Source: Flavobacterium sp. MC2016-06 (GTDB lineage: Bacteria > Bacteroidota > Bacteroidia > Flavobacteriales > Flavobacteriaceae). From it: a stretch of DNA of 64,000 nucleotides. Each line of letters opens with the position of its first letter. Position 1 is the stretch's first letter. The stretch spans positions 186,001 to 250,000 of the forward strand of contig NZ_WMID02000003.1 of assembly GCF_009711165.2 (NCBI RefSeq), in the 5' to 3' direction. The position numbers were made by a program, and so were the translations under genes. Shown here piece by piece: positions 4,333-30,512 of this stretch. The notes under the pieces are model-generated. The model did not search any database. It was given only the letters and a program-made list of their open reading frames with translations, and was not told the origin of the DNA.

Positions 4333-5505
4333 ATGATTCAAGTTGAAGAAGCCTTATTGATTATTGCAGAAAACAGTATCAAAATGCCATTGCAGAAAAT
4401 TTCAGTGAGCAAATCACTCGGATATGTTTTGGCCGAAACCGTGTATTCGCCAATTGCAATGCCTCCATTTCGTCAATCTGCCATGGATGGTTATGCCTTC
4501 ATTCACAGTGAAAGACATCAATATGATTTAGTAGGAAGTTCGCAGGCTGGAGATCATAGTAATATAAAATTAAAACCAAACGAAGCAGTCCGCATTTTTA
4601 CAGGAGCTTTTGTTCCCAATGATGCAGATACCGTTGTAATGCAGGAACACGTAATGGCCAACGATAAATCAATCTTGATCACCATTATGCCCGAACATGC
4701 AGCAAATGTGCGCAGTAAAGGAGAACAAATAAATCAAGAAGAGGTTGTATTTGATGCTAATACATTAATCACACCTGCTGCAATTGGATTTTTAGCTTGT
4801 TTAGGAATTACAGAAATTACCGTTTATAAAAAGCCAAAAGTGACCATTTTAGTAACTGGAAACGAATTAATAAAACCTGGAAAAAAATTAAAAAAAGGAA
4901 AGATTTACGAAAGCAATTCAGTTATGCTTCAAGCGGCGCTGCAGACTATCGGAATTAAAAAAACAAAAGTTTATAAAGTAGAAGATAATCTTAAAGCAAC
5001 AAAAAAAGCATTAAAAGAGATTCTTGCCAAGTATGATATTGTTTTAGTTTCTGGTGGAATATCAGTTGGAGATTATGATTTTGTAAAAGAAGCATTATTA
5101 GAAAATGGAGTAGAAGAGCTATTTTATAAAATCAATCAGAAACCTGGTAAACCAATGTTTTTTGGATCTAAAAAAGAAACGTTAATATTTGCTTTACCTG
5201 GAAATCCTGCGTCATCGCTTACCAATTTTTATGTTTACGTATATCCAGCAATCAGAAATAGAATGGGTTTTTCTGAAACACATCTGCCAAAAATGGTTCG
5301 AAAATTAAATGCAGCCGTAAGTAATTCGACTGGAAAAACATTGTTTTTAAAAGCCTTATATAATGAAACTCACGTTGAAGTTTTAGGAAGTCAGAGTTCA
5401 GCAATGCTCAATTCATTTGCAATAGCCAATAGTTTATTAATAATTCCAAATGATATAGAAAATCTAAAAAAAGGAGAATTAGTAACCTTGCTACCGATTA
5501 ATTAA
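4333..5505 (+). CDS. moeA: Molybdopterin molybdenumtransferase MoeA
   Basis: MoeA inserts molybdate into adenylylated molybdopterin, the last step of Mo-cofactor synthesis. Visible family marks are PPFRQSAMDGYA near the N terminus, the MoCF-binding segment VLVSGGISVGDYDFV and the GNPASS motif after it. I chose the ATG at 4333 (MIQVEEA), which gives about 390 residues, the normal length. A TTG 18 bases upstream is in frame but would add a non-family peptide. The 156-base spacer before it carries its own promoter-like and operator-like sequence, so it may be expressed separately from the oxidoreductase genes upstream. It supplies cofactor for both molybdenum enzymes of the window. Confidence 0.95.
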   Translation: MIQVEEALLIIAENSIKMPLQKISVSKSLGYVLAETVYSPIAMPPFRQSAMDGYAFIHSERHQYDLVGSSQAGDHSNIKLKPNEAVRIFTGAFVPNDADTVVMQEHVMANDKSILITIMPEHAANVRSKGEQINQEEVVFDANTLITPAAIGFLACLGITEITVYKKPKVTILVTGNELIKPGKKLKKGKIYESNSVMLQAALQTIGIKKTKVYKVEDNLKATKKALKEILAKYDIVLVSGGISVGDYDFVKEALLENGVEELFYKINQKPGKPMFFGSKKETLIFALPGNPASSLTNFYVYVYPAIRNRMGFSETHLPKMVRKLNAAVSNSTGKTLFLKALYNETHVEVLGSQSSAMLNSFAIANSLLIIPNDIENLKKGELVTLLPIN

Positions 5506-17700: not shown

Positions 17701-18236
17701 CACCAAGCCGGATTTGCACCTGTAATCAAAAAAGTATCTGCCAATTCGATATCATCGTAAGCAATTGGAACAGAATCTTCTCCAAATGTTTTTTTATAAC
17801 CTACAACGGCAGAACTCATACAAAGTCTGGAGTTGGTATCGATATTATTTGTTTTTAGAAAACCTTTTACGAGTTTGTTTACTAAGTAATATTCCTCAGT
17901 CAAACATTGTCCTGAAATATAAAATCCAACGCTGTCTGGCCCGTGTTTTTTTATGATGGAGGTAAAAACAGCTGCAGCGCGGTCTAAAGCGGTGTCCCAG
18001 CTTACACGTTGCAACGGATAAGATTTGCTCCCGCGCATTTCCGGATATAAAATTCTATCTGAAGTATCGTTGACTACGTAATGCAGATTCATTCCTTTAG
18101 AACACAACATTCCTTTATTGACAGGATGATCTTTATCGCCCGTAACCATCACACCGTTTTTAGCATCATTGGTTACAATAATACCGCAGCCAACGCCACA
18201 ATATGAACAGGTAGTTTTGATTTTGGTATTTTGCAT
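14718..18236 (-). CDS. nasC: Assimilatory nitrate reductase fused to NAD(P)H reductase and BFD domains (NasC-NasB type)
   Basis: A single 1172-residue polypeptide carries a complete electron path. Residues 1-~690 are the molybdopterin catalytic part: [4Fe-4S] motif CSYCGVGC near the N terminus and Mo-ligand cysteine in SRLCMSSAVVGYKKTFG, typical of NasA/NarB. From about residue 702 an FAD/NAD(P)H oxidoreductase follows (IAIVGAGAASF, ILATGSRPFVP, VVIIGGGLLGLELA), like NirB or NasB. From about 1115 there is a BFD-type [2Fe-2S] domain with CSCSQ and CGSC. It should reduce cytoplasmic nitrate to nitrite with NAD(P)H, without a separate electron subunit. The promoter carries the best NarL-type site of the window. 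Confidence 0.93.
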   Translation of the reverse strand: MQNTKIKTTCSYCGVGCGIIVTNDAKNGVMVTGDKDHPVNKGMLCSKGMNLHYVVNDTSDRILYPEMRGSKSYPLQRVSWDTALDRAAAVFTSIIKKHGPDSVGFYISGQCLTEEYYLVNKLVKGFLKTNNIDTNSRLCMSSAVVGYKKTFGEDSVPIAYDDIELADTFLITGANPAWCHPILFRRIEKHKEKNPKIKIICIDPRRTDTAAFADLHLQIIPGSDIILYHAIAKRIIEKGYVDHDFVKNNAENFKQYKDLVLSTSFEKASKLCGISVNDIKLAADIIGKAKGFISLWAMGLNQSAVGVDKNTALLNLSLLTGQVGKPGSGPFSLTGQPNAMGGREVGGMATLLAAHKDIANPEHRKEVADFWGVDSISDKPGLTATEMFEALESGKMKAVWIICTNPLVSLPDSRRIEKALQKAKFVVVQDISHNADTAKFADLLLPAAGWLEKEGTMTNSERRISYLPKGINAPGEALPDIEILIRFAKKMNFNGFNFNNAEEIYKEHCALTKNTNIDISFLNYHRLKTEGTFQWPVPDYGHPGTPRLFTDKKFYTPSQKAIFNLPTAIENTSEQPTPEFPFILTTGRVRDQWHTMTKTGKVSRLLTHTPSPVLEINPIDAFKNDIKNGEIIMVSSKNGEVRVKAKVTDSIKEKVLFLPMHWGKQLENDLNRTNNLTNTVVDPISKEPDFKYTTVSIKKYVKPFQKIAIVGAGAASFRFIQNYREFNSTDEIIVFSNEINPFYNRVLLPEYMTGEFTWEQLLKVKDGETLNKLNITMKAGVAIDKVDAEQKTITDSLGETHTFDSLILATGSRPFVPENAQLHLPGRFTVRRKEDADRLKKHLDNTNLPPEEQHVVIIGGGLLGLELAAALKHKKVKTTIVQRASRLMERQLDRISSKLLAEEVQLRDIQIYFDNEVSTVFETDNPNEIEIALKSGRIITANAIVYTIGTIPNIEIARETGLACGRGVKVNQYLQSSNPDIFAIGEIAEFGGKLFGITSAAEEQADILANFLAGDISSYYKGSILMNILKLEDINLCSIGDIEIPENDDSYEEIVFTDLKQRYYKKCIVKNDLLVGAILMGDKNEFAEFKTMIESKIELSDKRNSLLRGSSNAKPVLGKLVCSCSQVGAGNIEETIKSGVNNFTDLCKNTGAGLGCGSCKTEVKEILAKCKV

Positions 18237-18294: not shown

Positions 18295-18327
18295 CAAAAA
18301 TAAGTATTTTTACGTATAAATACGTAA
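18295..18327 (-). promoter_or_regulatory. Nitrate reductase promoter with perfect 7-2-7 inverted repeat
   Basis: On the minus strand TATTTTTG (18295-18302) matches TAnnTTTG. TTACGTAT-AA-ATACGTAA at 18310-18327 is a perfect 8-2-8 inverted repeat centred 20 bp upstream of that box. A further half-site ATAAGTAT lies at 18300-18307. The geometry is that of NarL/NarP sites, and related sites precede narK and nirB. Confidence 0.7.
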
Positions 18328-18367
18328 TTTTCGGAATTTATTTTTAAGTGAATATTAAATAAATGGG

Positions 18368-18739
18368 TTAATCTGCTCCGGTAAATTCTGTTTTACCATT
18401 GATAATATCAATTTCAGCATAATTATGTTTTCCAATAACAACGTGTAACTTGTCTTTATTAAGTCTTATATATCTTATTTTAGGTTTTCCAACCTTAGGT
18501 TTGCCACAAACAGAAACAACATTTGTCTGCCAGATAATTGTATTGTTTTTATAAGCTGATATTGTTTCTAAATCTTTCTCAACGTAATAAATAATTTTGC
18601 AGTATTCAATTCCTCTTTTTGGAGTTGTTATGAAATTTAATTCTAAGTTTTTAGATACTAATTCAATATTATATTTTTGAGCAAATGCAGATTGTACTAA
18701 AATGAAAGTGAGGATAATTGCTTTAAGAATCTTTTTCAT
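18368..18739 (-). CDS. Small secreted protein of unknown function, copy A
   Basis: This 123-residue protein has a clear Sec signal peptide (KAIILTFILVQSAFA, cleavage before QKY). It has no domain I recognise. It is a close paralogue of the protein at 19619-19984: both share the signal-end AQKYN, a KRGIxxxxIIYYVExDLxTISAYK segment, WQTNVxSxCGKPK and the C-terminal GKHNxAEIDIxNG block. The repeated beta-strand-like pattern could be one or two blades of a propeller-type fold, but that is a guess. It follows the YwqK-like gene by six bases and is divergently oriented from nothing nearby; it may be cotranscribed with that gene. Confidence 0.75.
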   Translation of the reverse strand: MKKILKAIILTFILVQSAFAQKYNIELVSKNLELNFITTPKRGIEYCKIIYYVEKDLETISAYKNNTIIWQTNVVSVCGKPKVGKPKIRYIRLNKDKLHVVIGKHNYAEIDIINGKTEFTGAD

Positions 18740-18745
18740 GATTAG

Positions 18746-19258
18746 TTATTTGATTTTCTTTCCATTTTCATAAATAGAGTTTATTTCTTCCCCTTTTTTT
18801 GATAAGCAAAATTCTTTTCCATTTTTCTTTCCGTCTTTATACTCACAGCTGAATGTTAATTTACCATTAGAAAAAAATTCTTCGTTTATTTTGTTTCCAT
18901 TTTCATCAAAGTAAATAGTAGAATCGACAGTGCCATCAAAATCTAAACGATCTGTTTTTTTCTTTTTAAAATATTCATGATCGTAATAATACGTTTTTCT
19001 GCTGGGAATTCCTTTTGCACTTTTATTGTAGTATTCGGTTGCGAGGATTATATAACCATCTTTATAGTCTTTCTTTGCCAATAAAATATTATTTGTCCAT
19101 CTTCGAAATTCTATTGAACCTGTAAAGATGGAATCATTAGCTGTTTTATAAATAAGGCCATCTTTTTGGTAAATTTCTTCCGGCGTAAACACTTTGTTTT
19201 CTTGTGAAAAACATTGAATACTTATGAATAAAAAAAGGAATGATAATTTATGAAGCAT
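18746..19258 (-). CDS. Secreted protein with YwqK/MORN-like repeats
   Basis: This 170-residue protein has a Sec signal peptide (LSFLFLFISIQCFS). The mature part shows repeated Tyr/Gly strands such as TIYFDENGNKINEEFFSNGKL and CEYKDGKKNGKEF, the pattern of MORN-like or YwqK-type repeats that are widespread in Bacteroidota. No catalytic residues are seen and its role is unknown. It sits six bases upstream of the small secreted protein copy A and downstream of a terminator that ends the porin remnant, so these two genes probably form their own short transcript. Confidence 0.7.
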   Translation of the reverse strand: MLHKLSFLFLFISIQCFSQENKVFTPEEIYQKDGLIYKTANDSIFTGSIEFRRWTNNILLAKKDYKDGYIILATEYYNKSAKGIPSRKTYYYDHEYFKKKKTDRLDFDGTVDSTIYFDENGNKINEEFFSNGKLTFSCEYKDGKKNGKEFCLSKKGEEINSIYENGKKIK

Positions 19259-19390
19259 GAATTAAATTTTGATTAAAAGTTATCAGTTTTTAAAATCTAT
19301 AACTCATTTTATATTGAATATTGAAATGTTTTTTGGTAAATCAAATGTACTTAAATCAGAAACTTAAAAAACGTTTGTTTCAATAAAAAA

Positions 19391-19418
19391 AATCTCTTTT
19401 GAATAAACAAAAGAGATT
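19391..19418 (-). terminator. Rho-independent terminator after the porin remnant
   Basis: A 10-bp perfect stem (AATCTCTTTT / AAAAGAGATT) with an 8-base loop is followed on the minus strand by a run of T. It sits where the intact porin gene also has a terminator. Confidence 0.8.
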
Positions 19419-19437
19419 ACATAGTAACTGTATTTTA

Positions 19438-19592
19438 TTTTTTAAAACTAAATATTCTAGGATTTACATTTATCAAAAACCCAATACCAGTTATTGGAAT
19501 ATCCAGCATCTCTGGCTTTTAGAAATTCTAAAGTTTTTGTTCCAAACATTTGAGAATAATCGAGGCTTAAAATGATATCTTCATCCTTAAAT
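19438..19592 (-). pseudogene. C-terminal remnant of the alginate-export-type porin
   Basis: Translation of the minus strand gives FKDEDIILSLDYSQMFG, then TLEFLKARDAGYSNNWYW, and in a shifted frame NVNPRIFSFKK followed by a stop. These match the last ~52 residues of the intact porin at 20121-21380 (YSQMFGSETLEFLKSGDAG ... NPRIFSWKK). One frameshift near 19478 separates the two parts and nothing upstream of the matching end survives. It is therefore a decayed, 5'-truncated duplicate. A terminator follows, as in the parent. Confidence 0.85.
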
Positions 19593-19618
19593 TGCTTTCT
19601 TGTTAAACGGTATTAATC

Positions 19619-19984
19619 TTAACCAACAAGCGTTGTATTGCCATTAAGAATATCAATTTCTGCAAAATTGTGTTTTCCCATGACAATAAGGAGTTTGTTT
19701 GAGTTGTATCCTATATATCTAATTTCAGGTTCTCCGAGTTTTGGTTTTCCACAAGCTGAAATTACATTTGTCTGCCATTGCAATTTGCTTCTTTTGTAGG
19801 CAGATATTGTTTGTAAATCATTTTCAACATAATAAATAATGTTGTTTTTTTTAATTCCTCTTTTTTGCGTTTTTGAAAAATTTATTTCTGAGTTTTGAGA
19901 AATTAAGGCATCATTGTATTTTTGAGCGATACCTGTTTGCGTCACCATAAAGGTTAACATTGATAGTTTTAAAAATTGCTTCAT
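19619..19984 (-). CDS. Small secreted protein of unknown function, copy B
   Basis: This is a paralogue of the protein at 18368-18739, of similar length, with a signal peptide (LSMLTFMVTQTGIA) and the same conserved blocks (KRGIKK, NIIYYVENDLQTISAYKR, WQTNVISACGKPKLG, GKHNFAEIDILNGN). The start is placed at ATG 19984 (MKQFLKL), which gives a normal signal peptide; a longer in-frame start at 20017 would put charged residues ahead of it. It lies between the intact porin and the porin remnant, so the porin/small-gene pair seems to have been duplicated together. Function is unknown. Confidence 0.7.
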   Translation of the reverse strand: MKQFLKLSMLTFMVTQTGIAQKYNDALISQNSEINFSKTQKRGIKKNNIIYYVENDLQTISAYKRSKLQWQTNVISACGKPKLGEPEIRYIGYNSNKLLIVMGKHNFAEIDILNGNTTLVG

Positions 19985-20064
19985 TTGGATAGAATTGGGG
20001 GTTCTTAATCGGTTCAAATATAATTATTTAAAGGATATAATATGGTTTTTATAAATAAAAAAAA

Positions 20065-20092
20065 TACCCTTTTACTATTTAGGAAAAGGGTA
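20065..20092 (-). terminator. Terminator after the porin gene
   Basis: TACCCTTTT and AAAAGGGTA form a 9-bp stem around a 10-base loop, followed on the minus strand by a T run. Confidence 0.85.
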
Positions 20093-20120
20093 AAATATTG
20101 AAGTTAATTTTAAAGAAAAA

Positions 20121-21380
20121 CTATTTTTTCCAGCTAAAAATTCTAGGATTCACAGAAATCATTAACCAAGCCCAATTGTTGGTATGTCCGGCATCTCCAG
20201 ATTTTAGAAATTCTAAAGTTTCAGAGCCAAACATTTGCGAATAACCGCCAGTTAAAACAATATCTTTTTTGAATTTATAAGCAGTTGTAAAGTCAACTTC
20301 AGTTCCTAAATAAGAATCTAGTGTTTCATTAACAGGTGTAACTACTTTATTTGGCGCATAAAACAAATGCGGTATTAAAGCAAACTGCCATTTGTTTACA
20401 TTGTAATTCAGTTTCAAGAATGCATCTTGTAAACCCACACTATTTTGGTGATTACCCACATAAAAATAATCCATATAGCCATTAAAAGCGTGATTGGTTC
20501 CAAAAATAGGGTTGAATGATTTGATTACAGTGCTTCCGTCGTTCATGTCTTTTCCAGATAAGAATTCGTAGCCTAAACCAATTTTGAAATTTTCTGTTGC
20601 AAAATAACCTAAGTTAGCTCCTGCATACCAAGCGCTTACCTGCTTATCAGTACTTTTTCCAGTCTGTCCGTAAAAGGCCAAATCACTGTCGATTTTCTTT
20701 GTTTTGTAGGTAAGGTAAGTTCCAAATGTTTGCTTGTAATCGACTAGTAATTTTGTAGCAGCATTTGCGTATTCATAACCAGTGTTGAGTACTAATAAAC
20801 TAGCATTTAGATTACTTATAGAAGTATGATACCAAGCAAATTGCATGGTTTTGTAATTGGTAACGGTGTACGGAGTTTGAACCAAATTTTCGGCATTTGA
20901 GTTGTAAGCTCCTCCCAAATCTAACTGATGATTTTTTGGATTGAAGGTCACCAAAACCGCATCATGACTTTGTCCTTGCTGCAGCCAGTCTATTTCTCCC
21001 ATAATACGCTGATTGTCGTACGACAGGACTTGTCTTCCTAATCTTGCGCTCCATTTTTCTGAAATGTCATATTGTGCCCAAGCTTCAAAAACAGCAATTC
21101 CGTTTTTATCTGCTGTAGTGTTGGTTGGAACATCTCCCCAAGTTCTAACGTTTTGAAGCGTTAGTTTTACTTTTAATAAATCTTGTTTATAATCAAAATT
21201 TAATCGGGAACGTTGTGTAATTTGTGATGTACCTTCTTGTCCATAAGGAAGCAGTGTTTTATAGCCATTACGGAATTCATAACGAGGTCTAAGTTGAAGA
21301 TTTACATCTAATTCCTGAGCCTGAAGCCCAAAACTTGTAATTCCAATTATAAGTATGAGAATTTTTGTTAGTTTTTTCAT
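20121..21380 (-). CDS. Outer-membrane porin, alginate export family
   Basis: The protein has 419 residues with a signal peptide (ILILIIGITSFGLQAQE). The body shows the alternating pattern of a large outer-membrane beta barrel (RPRYEFRNGY, QRSRLNFDYK, SARLGRQVLSYDNQRIMGEIDW). The RLGRQ...YDNQR...DWLQQGQSHDA block fits the alginate-export (AlgE-like) porin family, and the end (PRIFSWKK) lacks the canonical terminal aromatic residue. It lies 89 bases downstream of narK on the same strand and is probably cotranscribed with it. In that setting it may let nitrate or other anions cross the outer membrane; true alginate export is unlikely. Confidence 0.8.
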   Translation of the reverse strand: MKKLTKILILIIGITSFGLQAQELDVNLQLRPRYEFRNGYKTLLPYGQEGTSQITQRSRLNFDYKQDLLKVKLTLQNVRTWGDVPTNTTADKNGIAVFEAWAQYDISEKWSARLGRQVLSYDNQRIMGEIDWLQQGQSHDAVLVTFNPKNHQLDLGGAYNSNAENLVQTPYTVTNYKTMQFAWYHTSISNLNASLLVLNTGYEYANAATKLLVDYKQTFGTYLTYKTKKIDSDLAFYGQTGKSTDKQVSAWYAGANLGYFATENFKIGLGYEFLSGKDMNDGSTVIKSFNPIFGTNHAFNGYMDYFYVGNHQNSVGLQDAFLKLNYNVNKWQFALIPHLFYAPNKVVTPVNETLDSYLGTEVDFTTAYKFKKDIVLTGGYSQMFGSETLEFLKSGDAGHTNNWAWLMISVNPRIFSWKK

Positions 21381-21469
21381 AAGTGATTTGTTTAAATAAA
21401 GTGTGAATTTAAAAGAGAAAATAAATTTATTTTGTGATAAAAATCATACAGTTTAATCTTTCTTAAATT

Positions 21470-22948
21470 TTATTGTCTATCAATCACTTTTGCTAAAACA
21501 GGTTGTTTTTCATTCATAATTTTGGTGATGGTATAATGCATCCAAATCAAACAAATAGAAGAAAAAACTAAGATGAAAATCCATGAACTAGACCAGATTC
21601 CGGTTGCAGTTAAAAGATATCCAAAGATAATTGGTCCGAAGAAACCGCCCAATCCGCCAATCATTCCAACCATACCGCCAACAACACCAACTTCTGTTGG
21701 GAAATATTCTGGTATATGTTTGTAAACAGCTGCTTTTCCAATTCCCCAAGAAATTCCGATTAGAATTACTAGAACTAAGAAAACCCACATATTGGCATCA
21801 AACTTAATTACGGTAATTCCTTTGGCAAGAAGTTCTTTTTTCTTTACAGTTTGGTTTTGTGCTACAACAACTTGCTGCCAAGATGTTTTGGTTGGAAAAA
21901 TGGCATTATCTGCATCGTTTTCTTTTTTCTGTGCTACAGCAAAATCGGTTTCTCCAATCTTTATTTTATCGTTTGAAACAGAAGTAATAGTTCCTTTTTT
22001 TGTTGCCAAAACGCCTGGACCTGTAGTTGTGATTTCCATTTTCGGAATCATCAATAAAGCACTTAAAATTACTGAAGAGCTTAAAACCCAATACATAACT
22101 TTTCTAGCGCCAAATTTGTCTGATAAATAACCTCCAAAAGCTCTAATAACCCCAGAAGGAAGACTAAAAAGCGTTGCAAATAAACCGCCCATTACTAAGC
22201 TAGTTTGGTAAACATTCATAAAGTTTGGTAAAAGCCATTGCGAATACGCTACAAAACATCCAAAAACTAAGAAGTAATAAGCTCCAAATCTCCAAACTCT
22301 AGCAGATTTTAAAGACTCTAACATTTGAGAAACTGTTTTAGTTTGGTTTTCTATTTTTTTATTTTTAGCAAAAATTAAAAAGGCTACTCCAATAACAAGT
22401 AACGAAACGGCATAAATTACCGGAAGTATTTTCCAGCCATTTTGAGGATCTTCTATAGAAAAATGATTTAATAAGGAAGGTGCAAGAAAGGTAGTAATTG
22501 CGGCGCCGGCATTTCCCATTCCGAAAATTCCCAAAGCGCGTCCCTGCCATTCTTTTGGATACCAGATTGAAGTATAACCAATTCCAACCGCAAAGCTTGT
22601 TCCTACCATTCCGAAAAAGAAACTTAATAAGGCAAACATAAAAAAGCTGTCGGCGTAAGGAAGTAAAAAAAGCGGAATAGAGCAGAGAAGGAGTAAAAGT
22701 GAAAAGACGTATTTACCGCCAAATTTATCGGTTAAGATTCCGATTGGTAAACGCATAATCGAACCCGTCAAAATTGGAATTCCCAATAACCAGCCAACTT
22801 GTACAACGCTCCAATGGAAAATACCATTATCGACTAAAAAAGTAACTAATACACCATTTAAGGTCCAACACGCAAAACATACGGTAAAGGCCAAAGTATT
22901 CAAGAATAGAATCTTGTGTGATTGTGATAAAGAGTTTGTATTTTTCAT
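21470..22948 (-). CDS. narK: Nitrate/nitrite transporter NarK (MFS) with an inserted soluble domain
   Basis: An MFS permease of 492 residues. The nitrate signature helices are GMGNAGAAITTF (about 143-154) and GMVGMIGGLGGFFGP in the second half. Between helices of the second half, about residues 303-388, there is an insertion absent from ordinary NarK proteins. Its sequence (KKGTITSVSNDKIKIG ... VVVAQNQTVKKKELLAKGI) looks like a small barrel-sandwich or biotinyl/lipoyl-like beta domain. It should import nitrate and/or exchange it for nitrite. The promoter carries a NarL-type 7-2-7 site, and the porin follows as the probable second gene. Confidence 0.93.
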   Translation of the reverse strand: MKNTNSLSQSHKILFLNTLAFTVCFACWTLNGVLVTFLVDNGIFHWSVVQVGWLLGIPILTGSIMRLPIGILTDKFGGKYVFSLLLLLCSIPLFLLPYADSFFMFALLSFFFGMVGTSFAVGIGYTSIWYPKEWQGRALGIFGMGNAGAAITTFLAPSLLNHFSIEDPQNGWKILPVIYAVSLLVIGVAFLIFAKNKKIENQTKTVSQMLESLKSARVWRFGAYYFLVFGCFVAYSQWLLPNFMNVYQTSLVMGGLFATLFSLPSGVIRAFGGYLSDKFGARKVMYWVLSSSVILSALLMIPKMEITTTGPGVLATKKGTITSVSNDKIKIGETDFAVAQKKENDADNAIFPTKTSWQQVVVAQNQTVKKKELLAKGITVIKFDANMWVFLVLVILIGISWGIGKAAVYKHIPEYFPTEVGVVGGMVGMIGGLGGFFGPIIFGYLLTATGIWSSSWIFILVFSSICLIWMHYTITKIMNEKQPVLAKVIDRQ

Positions 22949-22968
22949 AGTACCTAGATTTGTTTTGT

Positions 22969-23001
22969 CAAATGTAAGTACTTATAAGTATTAATACGTA
23001 T
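22969..23001 (-). promoter_or_regulatory. narK promoter with 7-2-7 inverted repeat
   Basis: TACATTTG on the minus strand (22969-22976) fits TAnnTTTG. ATAAGTAT-TA-ATACGTAT (22984-23001) is an 8-2-8 repeat with one mismatched pair, centred 20 bp upstream, as at the nitrate reductase. Another half-site TAAGTAT lies at 23010-23016. Confidence 0.7.
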
Positions 23002-23114
23002 TTTTTAATTAAGTATTTTTATCTAGTTAGAGCGATTTGTCAACATCACAAAATTGATTCTCTATTTTACTAAAACACTATTTTTTAAGGCTGATTTTTA
23101 TCTTTTAGTTAGAT

Positions 23115-23768
23115 TTATAAAAGAGAATATTCAGTTGCTTTGTTAGAAAGTTCCATTAAATTCTTCACTTTCAGCTTTTTCATTAAATTAAAACGATGAA
23201 CTTCGGCAGTTCTTTTGCTAATATCTAAAGCTTCGGCGATTTCTTTGTTTCCTTTTCCAGATAATAAAAGCGTTAGAATTTCTTTTTCTCTTTTAGTAAT
23301 CATCATTTCTTCGCCCAAGTTTTGTTTTGGCTCTAAAGAAGTATTGGTCAGTTGACTGATTAATATCGAAGAAATATCGCCGCTGAAGTATTTTCCACCA
23401 GCAGAAACAATATGCAGCGCTTTTAAAAATTCTTCTTTGCTTGAGCCTTTAAGTAAGTATCCGTCAGCACCTGCTTTAATAGATTTTAATACGTATTCTT
23501 CAGATTCGTGCATAGAAAGCATAATGATTTTTACAGCATTATTTTCGCTTCTAAGTTTTTCTACTACTTCTATACCTGTTAAGTGCGGCATACGAATATC
23601 TACTATAAGTAAATCGGGTTTGTTTGCGGCAACAACTTCCAGTGCATCAGCTCCATCAATAGCTTCGCCTACAACCTCAATGTTTGCTTCGTTTTCTAGT
23701 AAAGATTTTATGCCATCTCTTACAAATACATGATCGTCTGCTAGAACTACTCGAATTATATTGCTCAT
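23115..23768 (-). CDS. NarL/NreC-type response regulator
   Basis: This 217-residue regulator has an N-terminal receiver with the acidic pair in LADDH, the phospho-acceptor aspartate in LLIVDIRMPHLTG (about D54) and the conserved lysine in LLKGSSKEE. The C-terminal LuxR/NarL helix-turn-helix spans about residues 150-212 (TKREKEILTLLLSGKGNKEIAEAL, then KRTAEVHRFNLMKKL). It lies between narK and the NarX-like kinase, all on the minus strand. Its own upstream region has two copies of the half-site found before narK, nirB and the nitrate reductase, so I infer that it controls these genes and perhaps itself. Confidence 0.92.
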   Translation of the reverse strand: MSNIIRVVLADDHVFVRDGIKSLLENEANIEVVGEAIDGADALEVVAANKPDLLIVDIRMPHLTGIEVVEKLRSENNAVKIIMLSMHESEEYVLKSIKAGADGYLLKGSSKEEFLKALHIVSAGGKYFSGDISSILISQLTNTSLEPKQNLGEEMMITKREKEILTLLLSGKGNKEIAEALDISKRTAEVHRFNLMKKLKVKNLMELSNKATEYSLL

Positions 23769-23795
23769 CGTTTACTTAATTTTGATTCTGAAATT

Positions 23796-23836
23796 TTACG
23801 TATTTTACTCTATAAAGAAGATGCTAAGATACGTAT
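23796..23836 (-). promoter_or_regulatory. Two NarL-type half-sites upstream of the response regulator
   Basis: TTACGTAT at 23796-23803 and ATACGTAT at 23829-23836 match the half-site of the nitrate reductase operator but lie 33 bases apart, not as a 7-2-7 pair. No clear TAnnTTTG box is visible. Autoregulation is possible. Confidence 0.4.
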
Positions 23837-23849
23837 TTCTTTAAAAATA

Positions 23850-24513
23850 AATTCCAAATTTTTAAAATTCCAAATTCCAACTTAAAAAGGAGTTTGTTTC
23901 AGGTTTCAGGTTTCAAGTTTCAGGTTTCAAGTTTCAGGTTTCAAGTTTCAGGTTTCAAGTTTCAGGTTTCAAGTTTCAGGTTTCTGCTAAATGTTTAACA
24001 CAATATTGTCATTCTGAGCGAAGCCGAAGAATCTTCACAAACAGCTCGACAATTAAAATTATCCAATCTTTGAGGAATCGCTTGTACGATTTCTCCTTGT
24101 GTAGGAATTGACAATATTGTGGTAAATATTGTATTTCGTTACTATAGTTAGACGTACTGCAGTGCGTCTCTACGGAATAAATTGCGGAATAAATTGTGGA
24201 ATTTTTTTATGGAATTTTATTATAGAGCTGCTTGCGAAGATTCTTCGACTTCGCTCAGAATGACAAGATTGTTGTAAATAAAAAATGCGGTTACTTTAGT
24301 TAGACGCACTGGAGTGCGTCTCTACGGAATAAATTATGGAATTTTGTTGCGGAATTTTATTATGGAGCTGCTTGTGAAGATTCTTCGGCTTCGCTCAGAA
24401 TGACAATATTGTGGTAAACATTTAGTGAAAACCTGAAGCCTGAAACTTGAAACCAGAAACCTGAAACAAACTCCTTTTTAAGTTGGAATTTGGAATTTAA
24501 AAAATTGGAATTT
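23850..24513. repeat. Large nested inverted-repeat block between regulator and kinase genes
   Basis: The outer ends (23850-23905 and 24455-24513) are ~55-bp inverted repeats (AATTCCAACTTAAAAAGGAG and its complement). Inside are TTTCAGG/TTTCAAG heptamers (23895-23985, inverted 24430-24470), GTCATTCTGAGCGAAG-type palindromes (24007-24055, 24235-24264, 24376-24404) and two copies of a GTTAGACG...GTGCGTCTCTACGGAATAAATT unit (24148-24182, 24300-24334). No gene is supported in these 660 bases. Confidence 0.85.
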
Positions 24514-24519
24514 CCTTCT

Positions 24520-26325
24520 CTATATCGGGATATTAAAAGTAATTCTAGTTCCTTCACCAACAATAGATTTGAAGAAAACGCGGCCGTTTATGTATTGAAT
24601 TCTTTCTTTCATAAACAACAATCCCATTCCAGATTCACTGTTTCGTTTTTTATCGACCGATGTAATGTCAAAACCTTTTCCGTTATCATCAACAATAATA
24701 CTTAGTAAAGTAGGACTGTGCGAAAGCTGGACAATAATATGCGATGATTCGGCATATTTTATGGCGTTATTAATCGCTTCTTGCGTAAGGCGGTAAATAT
24801 TGATTTCGATTAAAGAATCTAAACGCTGTTCAAAATCGGTTTTGTTGTAAAAAAGAATTTCTTTCCCGGTTAGTTTAGAAAGTTCCTGCGTCAATTTTGA
24901 AAGTGACGAAACAATACCATGATCGCTCAATTCTGGAGGCATTAAGTTGAAAGTTGCTGTGCGGACTCCTTTTATAATATCGAGAGAAAGTTTCTTTAAA
25001 TATTCAATTTTCTGAGCCGATTTTTCTCTGTCGTCCAGATTAATACTTTCTAAACTAAATTTTAAACCCGTCAACATTTGCCCGATTCCGTCGTGAATTT
25101 CTTTAGCAATTCGGTTTTGTTCGTTTTCCTGATTTTCAACAATTTTACTCGAAATTACTTTTTGCTGATTGATTTTTTCGGTACTGTTTTCAATATTTAA
25201 TCGTTCAACTTCTCGCTGTGCTTTTTTACGTTCGGTAATATTAAAACAAACAATTAAAAGTTCAAGTTCGTTTTTTTTAATCGTTACTGGAAACATCGAT
25301 AAATCTAACCATATATTTTGACCTTGCGGATTTGCGATATTAATTTCGCCTTGCCAGCTGCTTCTATGTTTCTCAAAAATAAGACGATCGATATTGATCT
25401 GCTGTTTTTCATCAGTCGTTAAAACCTGAGAAAAAGTCTTGTTAGATGAAAATTTGGTATAATTTAAGAGCTTAGCAAATTTTTCTCCAATATGAATAAT
25501 AGAACCATCGGGTGCAATACGTGCATAAAGCAATGTGTTTTCCATTGCATAATTAAGCGACTTTAATTCTTTTACAGAGTTTTCTTTTATTTCGCTGATA
25601 ATTTCGGTATCGTATGCTAATTTTAAAGCTTTCTTTTCAGATGAAAGAAGCTTTGCAATTAAGCGTTCTATTTTTTTATTCGTAGGTTTGAAAATGAATA
25701 AAAACTCGAGAAGTAAAACCAGAAGTGTAAAACCAAAAATTAGATATTCGGTTTTGCGTTGCTGCGTTACTTTTTCATGAGCTTCTATATCATATTGACT
25801 CACAATTTGATTCATTTTAGAAAGAAAAACACTTTCGTTTTTTAAAATAATCTGTACTAGTTTTTGATTATTTGTAGTACTGTTTTTCTGTTTTAAATTT
25901 GAAAGATATAAATCAACCGATGCTGCAATAGCATTAAAACTAGGTTTTATTTCAGTGTATAATTTAGCCAGTGTTTCGCTTTTTTCTTTAGGGAAAACCA
26001 AGCTGTCATTGCCATTTTCCAGTGCGTTTTGATTGGTTTCCCAAGTTGTAAGAACCTTTTTTAAATGCGAGATTTCGGGATTTTGAGTAGTGTCTGCAAC
26101 ATAGTTTAAGATCAAAACTTCTTTTACAATTTTCTGGCTCAGCATTCTTTGTTTACCCGAAAAATTGATGATTTTAGAATCGCTTAATTGCTGCTTTAAG
26201 TTGTATTGAATTAAAACCTGACTTAAAATAATGGTTATAGCAATTGTCCAGAGTGCAAAAAAATACAGACGGCGTAAATTTTTGAATGTAATTTTATCTG
26301 CAGCTTCTTGATTGCTTTTTTTCAT
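24520..26325 (-). CDS. NarX-like sensor histidine kinase with PilJ/NarX-type sensory domain
   Basis: The order of parts in 601 residues is: transmembrane helix 1 (about 20-42), a predicted helical periplasmic domain, transmembrane helix 2 (about 190-212), a PAS-type domain (about 270-370), a HisKA_3 dimerisation domain with the phospho-accepting histidine near 411 (AKEIHDGIGQ) and a C-terminal ATPase (INNAIKYAES, GKGFD, SGMGLLFMKERI). Directly after helix 1, residues 48-64 (SDSKIINFSGKQRMLSQ) match the nitrate-binding P-box of NarX/NarQ, including the Arg of the RM pair. I infer nitrate or nitrite sensing. Its partner is the regulator at 23115-23768. Confidence 0.9.
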   Translation of the reverse strand: MKKSNQEAADKITFKNLRRLYFFALWTIAITIILSQVLIQYNLKQQLSDSKIINFSGKQRMLSQKIVKEVLILNYVADTTQNPEISHLKKVLTTWETNQNALENGNDSLVFPKEKSETLAKLYTEIKPSFNAIAASVDLYLSNLKQKNSTTNNQKLVQIILKNESVFLSKMNQIVSQYDIEAHEKVTQQRKTEYLIFGFTLLVLLLEFLFIFKPTNKKIERLIAKLLSSEKKALKLAYDTEIISEIKENSVKELKSLNYAMENTLLYARIAPDGSIIHIGEKFAKLLNYTKFSSNKTFSQVLTTDEKQQINIDRLIFEKHRSSWQGEINIANPQGQNIWLDLSMFPVTIKKNELELLIVCFNITERKKAQREVERLNIENSTEKINQQKVISSKIVENQENEQNRIAKEIHDGIGQMLTGLKFSLESINLDDREKSAQKIEYLKKLSLDIIKGVRTATFNLMPPELSDHGIVSSLSKLTQELSKLTGKEILFYNKTDFEQRLDSLIEINIYRLTQEAINNAIKYAESSHIIVQLSHSPTLLSIIVDDNGKGFDITSVDKKRNSESGMGLLFMKERIQYINGRVFFKSIVGEGTRITFNIPI

Positions 26326-26391
26326 TCGAAGATAATATTTGTCTTTTTTCAGGAAAATGAAATTCGCTTTTGGCTCCTTTCATATATTAGA

Positions 26392-26976
26392 TTACAATCC
26401 TAAAGAAGCTTTTATTAAGTTTAAGTTTTCTTCAGAATAATTAATTTTCAAGGCTTCTTGATGTCCTTTGTCAGACATTTTATCCCAGGTTTTTTTGATT
26501 ATATTTTTCAGCTTTTCTTCATCGTGTTTGTGTACAAACGGATCAAGATAATACTCTAAAAATACTAGACAAATTACGTCTTCAAGTAATTGAGTTTCTG
26601 CATCTTTTTTAAGTAATTTTTTTTCAATTAAAAAAGAAACACGATCTGTAAAATCTTGATTGTAACCTGCTTTTTCTAAAATTGCAGCAGTAGTTTCGGC
26701 ATGAAATTTTTTCAAATCTCCTCGCCATTTCAGATATCCAACACGATCCATCGGGTACGATTCGCGCGCTACTTTCCATCGGCAGATATGCTGTGCTTTT
26801 GAGGCAATCTGAACTTCTTCAGAAGCTTCTGGTTCAAACTGCATCAGCTTTTCGTACATCCTGTTAGAATACAATAATTCTTTTGGATATTCAGTATTTT
26901 GGTCTGTTTCGATGTTCGGATCTTGTGCATTTTCTGCATCAATCCATTCGCTTGCTTTTTGAAAAGGTGTATTCAT
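26392..26976 (-). CDS. DUF4202 family protein
   Basis: A soluble protein of 194 residues matching the DUF4202 pattern: LLYSNRMYEKL, ASKAQHICRW, YPMDRVGYLKWRGDLKKFHA, EDVICLVFLEYY and KTWDKMSDKGHQEAL. The ordered histidines and acidic residues (QHICRW, FHAE, EDV) look like those of a diverged HD-type metal-dependent domain, but no activity is known to me. It lies 66 bases upstream of the kinase start, on the same strand, and downstream of nirD, so it belongs to the nitrite gene cluster. The function can only be tied to nitrite or sulfite assimilation by context. Confidence 0.85.
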   Translation of the reverse strand: MNTPFQKASEWIDAENAQDPNIETDQNTEYPKELLYSNRMYEKLMQFEPEASEEVQIASKAQHICRWKVARESYPMDRVGYLKWRGDLKKFHAETTAAILEKAGYNQDFTDRVSFLIEKKLLKKDAETQLLEDVICLVFLEYYLDPFVHKHDEEKLKNIIKKTWDKMSDKGHQEALKINYSEENLNLIKASLGL

Positions 26977-27024
26977 TTTTTTGGTTGAGATAATAGATTT
27001 TCAAAGATACTCAAATAAGTTTTT

Positions 27025-27136
27025 TATCGCCACGAATTTCACGAATCTACACGAATTAAATTAGTGAAATTGGTGAAATTCGTGGCGATAAATAAGCTTT
27101 TTTTGGTAAATCCGTTTAATCTGTGAAATCTGTGGC
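27025..27136. repeat. Palindromic spacer, GCCACGAATTTCAC family
   Basis: TATCGCCACGAATTTCAC (27025-27042) pairs perfectly with its complement at 27073-27090. A related ATCTGTGAAATCTGTGGCA half follows at 27118-27136. It sits between nirD and the DUF4202 gene. Confidence 0.85.
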
Positions 27137-27143
27137 ATATAAA

Positions 27144-27521
27144 TTAATCTAAAAAACCAACAAATACTTCATCTTCAATCACCTTAATTGGATAGGTTGC
27201 AATTTTATAATCGTCACCATTTAGGTTAGAACCGTCAACAAGAGAGAAGGTTTTTTTATGCATCGGGCAGGCAATTTTCGGAATATCATCCGCTGATCCT
27301 GTCATTCCTCTTGATAAAACCATTTCCATTTTGTGCGGACAAGCGTTTTGGCAGGCGTACCATTCGTTGCGGCGTGTAAAATTAAAAATCGCAATTTGTT
27401 TGTTTTTGTATTTAATGCAGCCGCCGCGGTTAGTAGGGAAGTCACTTACATTTCCAGCTTTAAACCATATTTTGGCTTCGTTCGGGTGTACGGTTTCGTA
27501 TTGATTTAAAATTTCTTCCAT
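27144..27521 (-). CDS. nirD: Nitrite reductase small subunit NirD (Rieske-type)
   Basis: A 125-residue Rieske-fold protein with both ligand pairs, CPHK and CPMHKKTF, so it should bind a [2Fe-2S] cluster (many NirD proteins of enterobacteria have lost it). It is the small partner of NirB and helps pass electrons from NADH to the siroheme centre. It lies 293 bases downstream of nirB on the same strand, and a palindromic repeat (27663-27793) fills most of this gap. Residues around CIKYKNKQIAIFNF and YACQNACPHKMEM fit the NirD family. Location is cytoplasmic. Confidence 0.93.
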   Translation of the reverse strand: MEEILNQYETVHPNEAKIWFKAGNVSDFPTNRGGCIKYKNKQIAIFNFTRRNEWYACQNACPHKMEMVLSRGMTGSADDIPKIACPMHKKTFSLVDGSNLNGDDYKIATYPIKVIEDEVFVGFLD

Positions 27522-27662
27522 TTGAATGTATTTTTAGGTCCTGTTTCTTATCCCTCCTTTTTACAATCAAGAGAGTTGATGGCGCAGTAAAAAAGAGGGT
27601 AAGAAGGACAGCAAACGTTAATGATATTTTTTTCTTTTTTTTGGAGCTTTATTTTCTTTTTT

Positions 27663-27793
27663 AACACATAGGAACATAGGTTTTTTTATTTTAAAAGTGA
27701 ATAGAAAGAAACCCGTTTCCTCACATAGCTATGTGTATATATGCAAGTGAAACGCCTCTTTTGAGCAACTAAATTCTATGTGTCTATGTGTTT
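27663..27793. repeat. Palindromic element, ACACATAGGAACATAG family
   Basis: AACACATAGGAACATAG (27663-27679) is repeated as an imperfect inverted copy, CTATGTGTCTATGTGTT, at the right end. The ends flank ~95 bases containing a second small palindrome (ACATAGCTATGT, 27723-27734). It lies in the nirB-nirD gap and has no gene. Confidence 0.7.
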
Positions 27794-27814
27794 AATTTTT
27801 TTATTAAGTGAGAT

Positions 27815-30328
27815 TTAAGACCAAGATTTTGGCATTTTTTGATCTCTTAACGGAACAAAGACTGCGTTATCATCTTTATCATCAGAATTTATAAAGTGGT
27901 TGAAACGTTTCAATAATCTTGGTTTTTCTAGTACTTGTTTCCATTCACATTCAAAAGTATCGACCAAAGTTGCCATTTCAGCTTCAAGCGTTTCACAGAT
28001 TCCTAAACTGTCTTCGATGATAACTTCTTTCAAATATTCTAAACCACCGTCTAATTTTTCCAACCAAGTCGAAGTTCTAATTAGCGGACCAGCTGTACGG
28101 ATGTAATACATTAAAAAGCGATCCATATATTTGATAACCGTTGCTTTGTCTATTTTTTCTGCCAATAAAACGGCGTGTTTTGGATTTGCACCACCATTTC
28201 CAGCGATGTATAAATTCCATCCGCCTTCAACAGCAATTAATCCGAAATCTTTGCCGCGTGCTTCTGCGCATTCGCGAATGCAGGCTGAAACACCGCCTTT
28301 TAATTTGTGTGGAGAACGAATTCCTTTATATCTGTTTTCAAGTTCGATTGCAAATCCGGCGCTGTCGTCCATTCCGTAACGGCACCAAGCATTTCCAACA
28401 CAGCTTTTTACGGCACGAAGTGATTTTCCGTAAGCGTGACCACTTTCAAAACCATTATCAATTAAGATTTTCCAGATTTTTGGTAAATCACTCAAATGCG
28501 CTCCGAATAAATCGACACGTTGTGCGCCCGTAATTTTAGTATATAAATCAAATTGTTTGGCAACTTCTCCAATGACGATTAATTTCTCGGCAGTAATTTC
28601 ACCACCGGCGACTCTTGGCACAACAGAATAGGTTCCGTTTCTTTGAATATTAGCTAAAAATCGATCGTTTGTATCTTGCGTTGTTATGTGTTTATTTGCT
28701 GTATCATTATAAATACTAGAAAAAATGGAAGCAACTACAGGTTTACAAACTTCGCAGCCATCTCCTTTACCGTGATGATCAATTACATCATAGAAATTTT
28801 CATATTTATTGATTTTTACTAAGTCAAATAATTCTTGACGTGTATAGCTAAAATGCTCGCAGATAACTTCTTTTACTTCTTTTCCTAATGATTTTTGAGT
28901 TGCTTTAACCAAATCAGAAACCATTGGTTTACATCCTCCACAGCCAGAAGTTGCTTTGGTTGCTTTGACAACATCTGAAAAAGTTGCACAGCTTTCGTCT
29001 AAAATTTTACAGCAGATTGTGCCTTTAGTTACATTTTCGCAAGAACAAATAACGGCTGTGTCTGGCAGATCCATAACGCTTCCTAAAGAAGAACCTTCAG
29101 AACCGTCGCGTGAACCTAAAATTAGATCTTCTGGATTTTTAGGCAAAGCCATTGCATTGCTGTAAATCTGAAAAAGTGAATTGTAATCACTAGAATCTCC
29201 AACTAAAATACCTCCAAGTAAAGTTTTGGAATCTTTTGTAACGTTGATTCTTTTGTAAACACCGCTCAATTTATTCTCGTAAATGATCGCAGTAACATTT
29301 TCATTTTCGACAAAAGGATCACCAAAACTCGCAACTTCAACACCAATTAATTTTAATTGTGTAGACATATCGATGGTTTCTCTCATGGTTTTAGTACCAT
29401 TTAAGATTTGCTCGGCAGCAACATCAGCCATTTCGTAACCTGGAGCAACAAGTCCGTAAATGTTTTGATTGTAAAGCGCTGCTTCGCCTATAGCAAAAAT
29501 AGAAGGATCTGATGTTTGCATCTGATTGTTTACCACAATTCCGCCTCTTAAACCGACGTCAAGTCCTGAAACTCGAGCTAATTCGTCGCGAGGTTTAATT
29601 CCGGCAGAAATAACCAGCATGTCAACTTTTAACAATTCTTCGTTTGCAAACATCATTCCCGTTATGCATGTTTCTCCGTCAATATATTGCGTTGCTTTGT
29701 TAAGATGAATTCCAATATTTAGTTCTTCTATTTTAGATTGTAACATGTCACTCGCGCCTTTGTCCAGCTGTCTTGGCATTAATCTTGGCGCAAATTCTAC
29801 TACATGTGGATTTAAACCTAAATCGCGAACGGCTTTTGCTGCTTCAAGACCTAATAGTCCTCCGCCCAAAACGGCTGCTTCTGTAGCGCCTTTTTGTTTT
29901 ATTTTTTTGGCGTAAGCCATAATTGCATCTAGATCTTCGATGGTACGATATACAAAAACACCTTCTTTTTCTACACCATCAATTGGCGGAACAAAGGCAG
30001 ACGATCCAGTTGCTAGAACTAAGTAGTCGTACGTATGTGTTTTTTCTAGATGTGTATGTATTGTTTTTTCACCTCGATTAATATCAGTAATTAATTCAGA
30101 AGTATTTAAAGTAATATTGTTTTCTGCATACCACTGACTTGTTGATAATGAAAGATCGTCAGCTGTTTTACCTCCAAAGTATTCACTTAAGTGAACTCTG
30201 TCATAAGCACGTCTTGGCTCTTCGCCAAATACGGTAATTTGATACTTTTCCTGTCCTGATTTTGCAATGAATTTTTCGCAAAATTTATAACCTACCATTC
30301 CGTTTCCAACTACTATTACTTTAATCAT
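27815..30328 (-). CDS. nirB: NADH-dependent nitrite reductase large subunit NirB
   Basis: The full-length enzyme (837 residues) reduces nitrite to ammonium with six electrons. The N-terminal FAD/NADH domain shows VVGNGMVGYKFCE, LVLATGSSAFVPP and AVLGGGLLGLEAA. Two BFD-type cysteine domains follow (CSCENV...CGGC and CEHF...CEVC). The siroheme/[4Fe-4S] part has the ferredoxin-like half-domain (TGAQRVDLFG) and the cluster ligands CVGNAWC and CIREC. Siroheme comes from the SUMT gene at 7271. The promoter has the same NarL-type inverted repeat as narK and the nitrate reductase. Spacing to nirD is unusually wide because of a repeat. Confidence 0.96.
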   Translation of the reverse strand: MIKVIVVGNGMVGYKFCEKFIAKSGQEKYQITVFGEEPRRAYDRVHLSEYFGGKTADDLSLSTSQWYAENNITLNTSELITDINRGEKTIHTHLEKTHTYDYLVLATGSSAFVPPIDGVEKEGVFVYRTIEDLDAIMAYAKKIKQKGATEAAVLGGGLLGLEAAKAVRDLGLNPHVVEFAPRLMPRQLDKGASDMLQSKIEELNIGIHLNKATQYIDGETCITGMMFANEELLKVDMLVISAGIKPRDELARVSGLDVGLRGGIVVNNQMQTSDPSIFAIGEAALYNQNIYGLVAPGYEMADVAAEQILNGTKTMRETIDMSTQLKLIGVEVASFGDPFVENENVTAIIYENKLSGVYKRINVTKDSKTLLGGILVGDSSDYNSLFQIYSNAMALPKNPEDLILGSRDGSEGSSLGSVMDLPDTAVICSCENVTKGTICCKILDESCATFSDVVKATKATSGCGGCKPMVSDLVKATQKSLGKEVKEVICEHFSYTRQELFDLVKINKYENFYDVIDHHGKGDGCEVCKPVVASIFSSIYNDTANKHITTQDTNDRFLANIQRNGTYSVVPRVAGGEITAEKLIVIGEVAKQFDLYTKITGAQRVDLFGAHLSDLPKIWKILIDNGFESGHAYGKSLRAVKSCVGNAWCRYGMDDSAGFAIELENRYKGIRSPHKLKGGVSACIRECAEARGKDFGLIAVEGGWNLYIAGNGGANPKHAVLLAEKIDKATVIKYMDRFLMYYIRTAGPLIRTSTWLEKLDGGLEYLKEVIIEDSLGICETLEAEMATLVDTFECEWKQVLEKPRLLKRFNHFINSDDKDDNAVFVPLRDQKMPKSWS

Positions 30329-30340
30329 GATTTCTTTAAT

Positions 30341-30389
30341 TAAGTATTACTACGCAAATATAAGTATTTATACTTATTAAAATACGTAA
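30341..30389 (-). promoter_or_regulatory. nirB promoter region with perfect 8-2-8 inverted repeat and extra half-sites
   Basis: ATAAGTAT-TT-ATACTTAT at 30360-30377 is a perfect inverted repeat. Half-sites TAAGTAT (30341-30347) and ATACGTAA (30382-30389) flank it, and another ATAAGTAT lies at 30427-30434. TATATTTG on the minus strand (30355-30362) fits TAnnTTTG; the repeat is centred 10 bp upstream of it, one helical turn closer than at narK. Confidence 0.65.
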
Positions 30390-30512
30390 TTTTTTTGTTT
30401 TTTTGTTGAAAATATAACCGTTCTAAATAAGTATTTTATCGTAGTCTTTTGTTTATAAGGGTTTCAGACTGTTTTTGAAGAATAGAAATTTTTAAAAATG
30501 TATTATTTTTCT

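Follow-up and report, generated by a model that had tools for sequence, protein, structure and literature searches.

What controls the genes for nitrate use in Flavobacterium, and can the controlling site be read from the DNA? The question is raised by a nitrate cluster in Flavobacterium sp. MC2016-06 that lies in a stretch of 64,000 nucleotides (contig NZ_WMID02000003.1, positions 186,001 to 250,000), referred to here as the window. The cluster includes genes for an assimilatory-type nitrate reductase, a narK-like transporter and a nitrite reductase (nirB and nirD), together with a sensor kinase that features a periplasmic PilJ domain and a response regulator of the NarL/FixJ family. An original prediction, made by a model from the letters of the window, proposed that this pair controls the whole set through inverted repeats of the NarL 7-2-7 type. 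The analysis reported here suggests, with a probability of roughly 85%, that the genes form a nitrate-assimilation regulon with an operator of its own, run by the PilJ kinase and the NarL/FixJ-family regulator. One short control sequence appears to be common to the genes for nitrate uptake and use in many genera of Flavobacteria, and its most likely reader is the predicted nitrate-sensing pair. Searches of open-licence PMC papers listed no work on an operator for nitrate genes in Bacteroidota. With the motif, the nitrate regulons of a large environmental family of bacteria become predictable, and a class of kinases recognised from sequence gains likely targets. It also offers an example of regulator sites within an atypical sigma-A promoter that is testable in Flavobacterium johnsoniae, and a control circuit that was unstudied becomes directly testable.

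Hexamer arrays joined to the promoter

The three inverted repeats that had been described upstream of the nitrate reductase gene, narK and nirB are all present at the positions predicted for them, and the pattern TA[AC]GTAT-N2-ATAC[GT]TA, both in the window and among the genome-wide matches of a looser 16-mer, fits these places alone (18311, 22985 and 30361 of the window). The palindromes are parts of arrays in which hexamers of the form TA[A/C]GTA or TAC[G/T]TA recur in 10-bp steps. In the window, the gene-proximal hexamer ends in a TA that is also part of a -7 box, and the result is a composite, TAMGTA-N4-TACKTA-NN-TTTG, whose 16-mer core is the hexamer pair. TAnnTTTG is the sigma-A -7 consensus that the available part of PMC9723704 gives for Flavobacterium. 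The composite ends in the TTTG of this box, and the difference here is that the TA of the box doubles as the end of a regulator hexamer. The TAnnTTTG boxes are located at 18295-18302 (nitrate reductase), 22969-22976 (narK) and 30355-30362 (nirB). The predicted distances from repeat to box of 20, 20 and 10 bp hold centre to centre by hand arithmetic, because the hexamers recur every 10 bp and the last one shares TA with the box.

Upstream of the nitrate reductase gene (14718..18236, minus strand) the composite is exact (TACGTA-AAAA-TACTTA-TT-TTTG; 18295..18316, minus strand; G000:C3:204295-204316) and belongs to a three-hexamer array (18301..18326; hexamers at 18301, 18311 and 18321, 10-bp period) that takes in the inverted repeat at 18310-18327. 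The narK composite (TACTTA-TAAG-TACTTA-CA-TTTG; 22969..22990, minus strand), ahead of the gene at 21470..22948 on the minus strand, has one mismatch and likewise lies in a three-hexamer array with a 10-bp period (22975..23000; hexamers at 22975, 22985 and 22995), with two extra hexamers, one at 23010 and the other, which overlaps, at 22979. The nirB gene (27815..30328, minus strand) is preceded by an exact composite (TAAGTA-TAAA-TACTTA-TA-TTTG; 30355..30376, minus strand), and the hexamers around its promoter (30341..30388) start at 30341, 30361, 30371 and 30383, with a degenerate TACGCA at 30351. A further exact composite (TAAGTA-AAAA-TACTTA-TG-TTTG; 4278..4299, plus strand) precedes moeA, the gene for a molybdopterin molybdotransferase (4333..5505, plus strand). 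The earlier palindrome account thus described real sites but missed the third hexamer at the nitrate reductase gene and narK, as well as the moeA promoter. Three hexamers upstream of the response-regulator gene (23773..23835; at 23773, 23797 and 23830, with spacings of 24 and 33) form a predicted autoregulatory site.

At up to two mismatches the repeat pattern has nine matches in the window, whereas 100 shuffles gave 1.25 ± 0.93 and at most 4. The own genome comprises 6.17 Mb, and the reversed pattern served as the control. A looser 16-mer pattern, TAMGTANNNNTAMKTA, has 27 strand-wise matches genome-wide, of which the three nitrate-gene places alone fit the strict repeat pattern; seven of its 15 forward places fall within the window, and six of these are at 18301-30376, one of the six (30020) being inside nirB. 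The other loose-pattern places in this genome (L008-L013, L015-L017) are in or near genes without an evident nitrate link, and one of them (L013, 1501-1522) reads TACGTA-N4-TACGTATACGTA ahead of a gene resembling sdhC. The exact composite occurs in three copies in the genome, all in the window, before nirB, the nitrate reductase gene and moeA. Allowing one mismatch brings in narK, a modE-like gene on a different contig (C21:98684), a place adjoining a long open reading frame (ORF) with no evident nitrate link (C6:124179), and opposite-strand readings.

Conservation in the genus, the family and beyond

The genus set comprises 80 loci of kinase relatives whose genomes are of Flavobacterium or carry the label Flavobacteriaceae or [Flexibacter]; for 73 of these relatives the identity is 82-89%. 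Upstream regions were dropped when the match was below 60% identity, was on the other strand or started after residue 12, or when less than 100 bp lay upstream; n differs by gene through these filters, and every n counts the window. The core is exact upstream of nirB in 79/80 loci, of narK in 72/73 and of the nitrate reductase gene in 59/59, and the nirB row that fails (L086) is one where the sole nirB match lay downstream. In the same loci the exact core was found upstream of 0/79 nirD, 0/80 DUF4202, 0/39 porin, 0/81 kinase and 0/74 regulator genes. The full composite is exact upstream of nirB in 78/80 and upstream of the nitrate reductase gene in 42/59, with one mismatch in a further five. 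Among 17 genus orthologs of moeA (at least 64% identity), the core is exact in 16 and the composite is exact in four, with one mismatch in 11 and three mismatches in two. Four of eight more distant moeA matches were evaluated and none of these has the core; 4/25 rows of the moeA comparison yielded no ORF under the filter used. Six genomes (L020, L024, L027, L029, L040 and L075) have a split cluster, in which other genes follow the kinase gene. Their regulator ortholog (92-94% identity) sits elsewhere, and in five of the six it adjoins narK with a 10-bp pair between the two genes. L080, where the stretch stops at a contig end, and L086, where the regulator is in place, are not counted as split clusters.

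The family draw consists of 199 genomes from 198 genera, and its presence and absence counts rest on lists transcribed by hand. The exact composite was found at 100 places in 49/199 genomes; for the reversed control, a count by eye gave eight matches. It is present in 43/46 genomes with nirB and in 6/153 without it (Fisher p 2e-33, which is nominal because the 46 genomes are related and are not independent events), and in 38 genomes it lies at most 200 bp upstream of nirB. All 46 nirB promoters have the exact core; the composite has 0, 1 and 2 mismatches in 38, 7 and 1 of them, and in shuffles of these promoters it never came under three. Pairwise identity across 45 of these promoters is 0.82 in the site against 0.39-0.40 in two flanking stretches, and all 184 cells of the 4-bp spacer hold A or T. 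The earlier idea that the operator can be predicted from sequence is supported by this conserved 16-bp core. In many genera another hexamer, in most cases TACGTA, sits close to the nirB start codon, about 20-21 bp downstream from the proximal hexamer. At the regulator promoter the core is exact in 26/46 family-draw genomes and in none of the shuffles.

The genes for NirB, the kinase and the regulator ortholog are each found in 46/199 genomes of the family draw, and the three sets are identical. NirB and the kinase also occur in the same 23/296 genomes of the order, by reading of the tables. The phylum draw places NirB in 25/335 genomes, of which 11 are outside the order. Two of these 11 nirB loci have a regulator ortholog at more than 50% identity in the fetched stretch; both have the hexamer pair, their regulators share the helix RT-E-HRFN, and in one of them, G713, the core is exact at nirB. 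The other nine loci have no hexamer pair and their core mismatches are within the shuffle range; a distant regulator (38-42% identity, with another helix) was found in two of them and none in the fetched stretch in seven, stretches rather than whole genomes having been searched. Rows L360 and L362 of the phylum table, for which a longer ORF start was chosen, do have the sites, seen as L126 and L119. From the core in 46/46 nirB promoters, the co-distribution in 46/199 genomes and the 2/11 loci outside the order, the kinase and regulator of the cluster are the most likely controller, as was originally supposed, and there is good support for a nitrate regulon under their control.

Sixty further composite places were fetched from family-draw genomes and the next gene was read. 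It is narK/MFS-like in 19/60; 17 of the 19 are at 22-27% identity, so nitrate transport is a putative role of these targets. The next gene encodes a nitrate reductase in seven, a porin-like protein in two, an NMT1_2-type binding protein, read as NrtA-like, in two, and an FNR-like Crp/Fnr regulator in 17, which come from 17 genomes of other genera. The remaining 13 comprise six in genomes without nirB, two opposite-strand readings of a site already counted, two exact composites before BBP2-type outer-membrane porins in two genera (L212 and L233) and three others (L219, L223 and L232). The claim that the pair most likely controls the nitrate set is supported, and the set is wider than was claimed, taking in moeA, the regulator gene and the modE-like gene and, elsewhere, the FNR-like regulator.

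There are a number of results that weigh against this reading. The composite of the nitrate reductase gene has 3-4 mismatches in 12/59 genus loci, and that of narK is exact in only 3/73, with one mismatch in 20, two in 47 and three in 3; in most Flavobacterium, narK keeps the hexamer pair but not its fusion to TTTG. Hexamers are found upstream of the regulator gene in 74/74 genus loci, but they are spaced by 24 (in 63) and 33 (in 60) rather than by 10, and in the family draw 14/46 regulator promoters miss the core by two or more. The pair of G698, which is outside the order and has GC-rich DNA, is at 11-bp spacing (TACGTA-N5-TACGTA-TT-TTTG). None of the 60 fetched places precedes moeA, so the support for it as a target is confined to the genus. 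The PilJ domain is missing from six kinase orthologs, though the operator is kept at nirB in the five genomes that are readable. Finally, genome-wide counts do not set the motif apart: the loose 16-mer has 15 forward and 12 reverse matches against 16 and 13 for the reversed control, the exact composite three against one, and the composite at up to two mismatches 19 and 22 against 29 and 35, the control being the commoner. By count, the loose forms are as frequent as the control or rarer; location in the window and conservation in relatives speak for the motif. The case rests on location, because the loose 16-mer is not enriched by genome-wide count.

Sensor, regulator and direction of control

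The sensor kinase (601 aa; 24520..26325, minus strand) contains a periplasmic PilJ domain (PF13675), a PAS domain (PAS_9), HisKA_3 and HATPase; HAMP and GAF-like domains were not found by Pfam. The N-box of nitrate-binding PilJ domains is given as [IVL]-[ND]-x-A-G-x-Q-R-M-L-[ST]-Q in the available part of PMC6381276. The kinase segment INFSGKQRMLSQ (residues 53-64; 26134..26169, minus strand) is one residue off this consensus, with S for A, and is predicted to bind nitrate. Among 105 kinases the N-box is found in 94 when A or S is allowed, 11 having the strict consensus; further variants are found in five, and the domain is absent in six. These PilJ-less kinases (L120, L121, L122, L251, L252 and L253) are of 446-491 aa and have only PAS and kinase domains by Pfam. 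The available part of PMC8199190 describes kinases of Bacteroidetes that have this layout and lie near nitrate genes, those of Flavobacteriales having PAS and lacking HAMP and GAF; the domain layout and the nitrate gene neighbourhood are alike, and the difference is that no operator or regulon is given in that part. The response regulator (217 aa; 23115..23768, minus strand) features a receiver and a LuxR/GerE helix-turn-helix and is the predicted binder. The initial description of a NarX-like sensor with a NarL-type regulator stands as far as a PilJ kinase and a NarL/FixJ-family regulator are concerned; it does not extend to HAMP and GAF domains or to the recognition helix, which is not that of NarL.

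In the proposed mechanism, the membrane kinase would sense nitrate through its PilJ-type domain and phosphorylate the regulator, which would then bind TAMGTA hexamers every 10 bp and therefore on one face of the DNA, with TAMGTA-N4-TACKTA as the minimal site. In the window, at the nitrate reductase gene, narK, nirB and moeA, and family-wide at nirB, the proximal hexamer reaches into the sigma-A -7 box. This placement suggests that the regulator acts from within the core promoter and most likely activates, replacing a missing -33 element. Its own gene would be under its feedback control, and in many relatives it would drive an FNR-like second-tier regulator. A conserved -33 TTG was considered and rejected, as it is found in 4/46 nirB promoters against 3.6 expected, nirB promoters being the only ones compared. 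The lack of this element suits an activator-dependent promoter, and activation is also favoured because a nitrate sensor would be expected to turn nitrate assimilation on.

The same regulator may instead be a repressor that occludes the -7 box and shuts out RNA polymerase until nitrate relieves this, which is considered less likely. Sites between -17 and -7 are more typically those of repressors, which counts against activation. The overlap of the proximal nirB hexamer with the TTTG box, where G is at the last position in 42/46 promoters, suits repression, as do the further hexamers within 20-21 bp downstream in many genera; the missing -33 TTG and the expected effect of a nitrate sensor argue against it.

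The sites were originally classed as NarL 7-2-7 operators, and a canonical NarL/NarP operator of this kind is now quite improbable. The NarL consensus is TACYYMT-N2-AKRRGTA, with the half-site order TACTTA...TAAGTA. The repeat TACGTAT-AA-ATACGTA fits it at 12/14 positions, counted by hand. NarL is, moreover, the best solved-structure match of the full-length regulator, and for the DNA-binding domain it scores 35.9 bits, above FixJ of 5xso (34.1). The conserved unit is, however, the hexamer with a 10-bp period, and its half-sites are in the order opposite to that of NarL: asymmetric inverted pairs at 10-bp spacing always read TAAGTA...TACTTA, TACTTA-N4-TAAGTA was found 0 times, and the 7-2-7 reading was rejected on this ground. 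At narK there are eight direct TACTTA pairs. The recognition helix SKRTAEVHRFNLMKKL (residues 184-199; 23172..23219, minus strand) matches FixJ of 1x3u at 10/16 positions and EsrB at 10/16 but NarL at 5/16, and both EsrB (51.6 bits) and FixJ of 1x3u (44.4) outscore NarL over the DNA-binding domain. This helix is nearly invariant, being identical in 82/90 orthologs; 73 of the 90 come from the Flavobacterium set. By its half-site order the operator is judged more FixJ-like than NarL-like, and the helix tentatively so, given that EsrB matches it equally well and FixJ of 5xso scores below NarL.

The site fits the FixJ layout TAAGTA-N4-NNCTTA with its TAMGTA half, FixJ itself having no single consensus. 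The available part of PMC4999443 gives the FixJ site at fixK as TAAGTAATTTCCCTTA, a selected class as GTAMGTAG and a second class as GTAGTTTCCC, with no common consensus. The circuit resembles rhizobial FixLJ-FixK in the hexamer TAMGTA, the 16-bp layout and half-site order, tentatively the helix (10/16 with FixJ of 1x3u) and targets that include a Crp/Fnr-type regulator gene, seen here in 17 genera and not in the genome of the window, which has no ortholog. It differs in that the right half of the fixK site, CCCTTA, fits TACKTA at 4/6 positions, and in its PilJ-domain kinase, its nitrate gene targets and the joining of the site to the Bacteroidetes -7 box. FixL carries a haem PAS. With NarX-NarL and NarQ-NarP of E. 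coli the circuit shares a nitrate-type periplasmic sensor, a HisKA_3 kinase, a NarL-family regulator and nitrate targets, whereas the kinase here has PAS and, by Pfam, neither HAMP nor GAF, the helix and half-site order are not those of NarL, and the genes are of the assimilatory type.

It is very unlikely that the operator belongs to the FNR-like Crp/Fnr regulator, binding as a dimer to a 16-bp inverted repeat and regulating its own gene. The composite precedes the FNR-like gene in 17 genomes (L188, L191, L192, L196, L203, L206, L207, L211, L214, L215, L226, L229, L235, L238, L241, L242 and L243), and orthologs (E below 1e-80) are found in 34/46 genomes with nirB and in 0/153 without it. The 12 remaining nirB genomes, that of the window included, all keep the nirB composite without an ortholog (10 exact, two with one mismatch), and on this count the protein was rejected as the binder and looks like a target instead. 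Phased arrays of three hexamers also do not fit a single Crp/Fnr dimer, and the TAMGTA half is unlike TTGAT or TGTGA, the half-sites of the Crp/Fnr type. Crp/Fnr proteins in a bioreactor are treated in PMC8510549, the available part of which does not name this motif. At its N-terminus the FNR-like regulator has C-x2-C-x4-C, and another cysteine precedes KKGQQF; these may form an Fe-S switch. A relative of it lies near the nitrate reductase operator of another Flavobacterium (G010:C11:710941-711630), and the match holds one TAA. Two nirB genomes of other families without a kinase-regulator pair in the fetched stretch have a Crp/Fnr-family gene within about 1 kb of nirB (L376, 5262-5954; L378, 16731-17411), possibly an older regulator of that gene set. 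Chance, or a compositional trait of AT-rich promoter DNA, can be set aside almost entirely: hexamers abound, with 74 of them in the 64-kb window, and the loose forms are no more frequent genome-wide than their control, but conservation is site-specific across about 45 genera and the exact core is absent upstream of nirD, DUF4202, porin and kinase genes in the same loci.

If the regulon run by the PilJ kinase and its regulator is taken as the preferred reading, a fuller picture can be drawn tentatively, at a confidence somewhat short of even. Flavobacteria and close kin would have a third wiring, in which a NarX-type nitrate sensor is coupled to a FixJ-type regulator that binds phased hexamers fused to the -7 box and activates within the core promoter. 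It would control nitrate uptake and reduction, its own gene, molybdenum cofactor synthesis in Flavobacterium and an FNR-like regulator, as FixJ does fixK, and some lineages would have lost the nitrate domain of the sensor and kept the rest.

Other genes and repeats in the window

The nirB product, the nitrite reductase large subunit, scores above cut-off with TIGR02374 and NF011565, and that of nirD, the small subunit (27144..27521, minus strand), with TIGR02378. A DUF4202 protein is encoded between nirD and the kinase gene (26392..26976, minus strand). The narK-like MFS transporter has TIGR00886 as its best model, below the cut-off of that model. The nitrate reductase is a molybdopterin enzyme fused to a pyridine-nucleotide oxidoreductase and a BFD domain; the NasC model is below cut-off and a formate dehydrogenase model scores higher, also below cut-off. 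Domain and family searches of the window proteins also place an alginate-export-like porin gene in the cluster. Downstream of the nitrate reductase gene, 13041-14471 encodes a nitrite/sulfite reductase ferredoxin half domain with a C-terminal rubredoxin domain.

The moeA gene lies about 14 kb from the nitrate cluster on the opposite strand and is accompanied by apparent further genes of molybdenum cofactor synthesis. A second molybdopterin oxidoreductase (582-2798) is located directly ahead of the moeA operator, and its gene is followed by those for an iron-sulfur protein and, as read by eye, a possible Rieske protein. A LysR gene is found at 33500-34384. Between the regulator and kinase genes, 23896-23984 consists of a tandem array of GTTTCAAGTTTCAG in 6.4 copies, and units resembling it are also present at 14483-14547 and 24429-24467.

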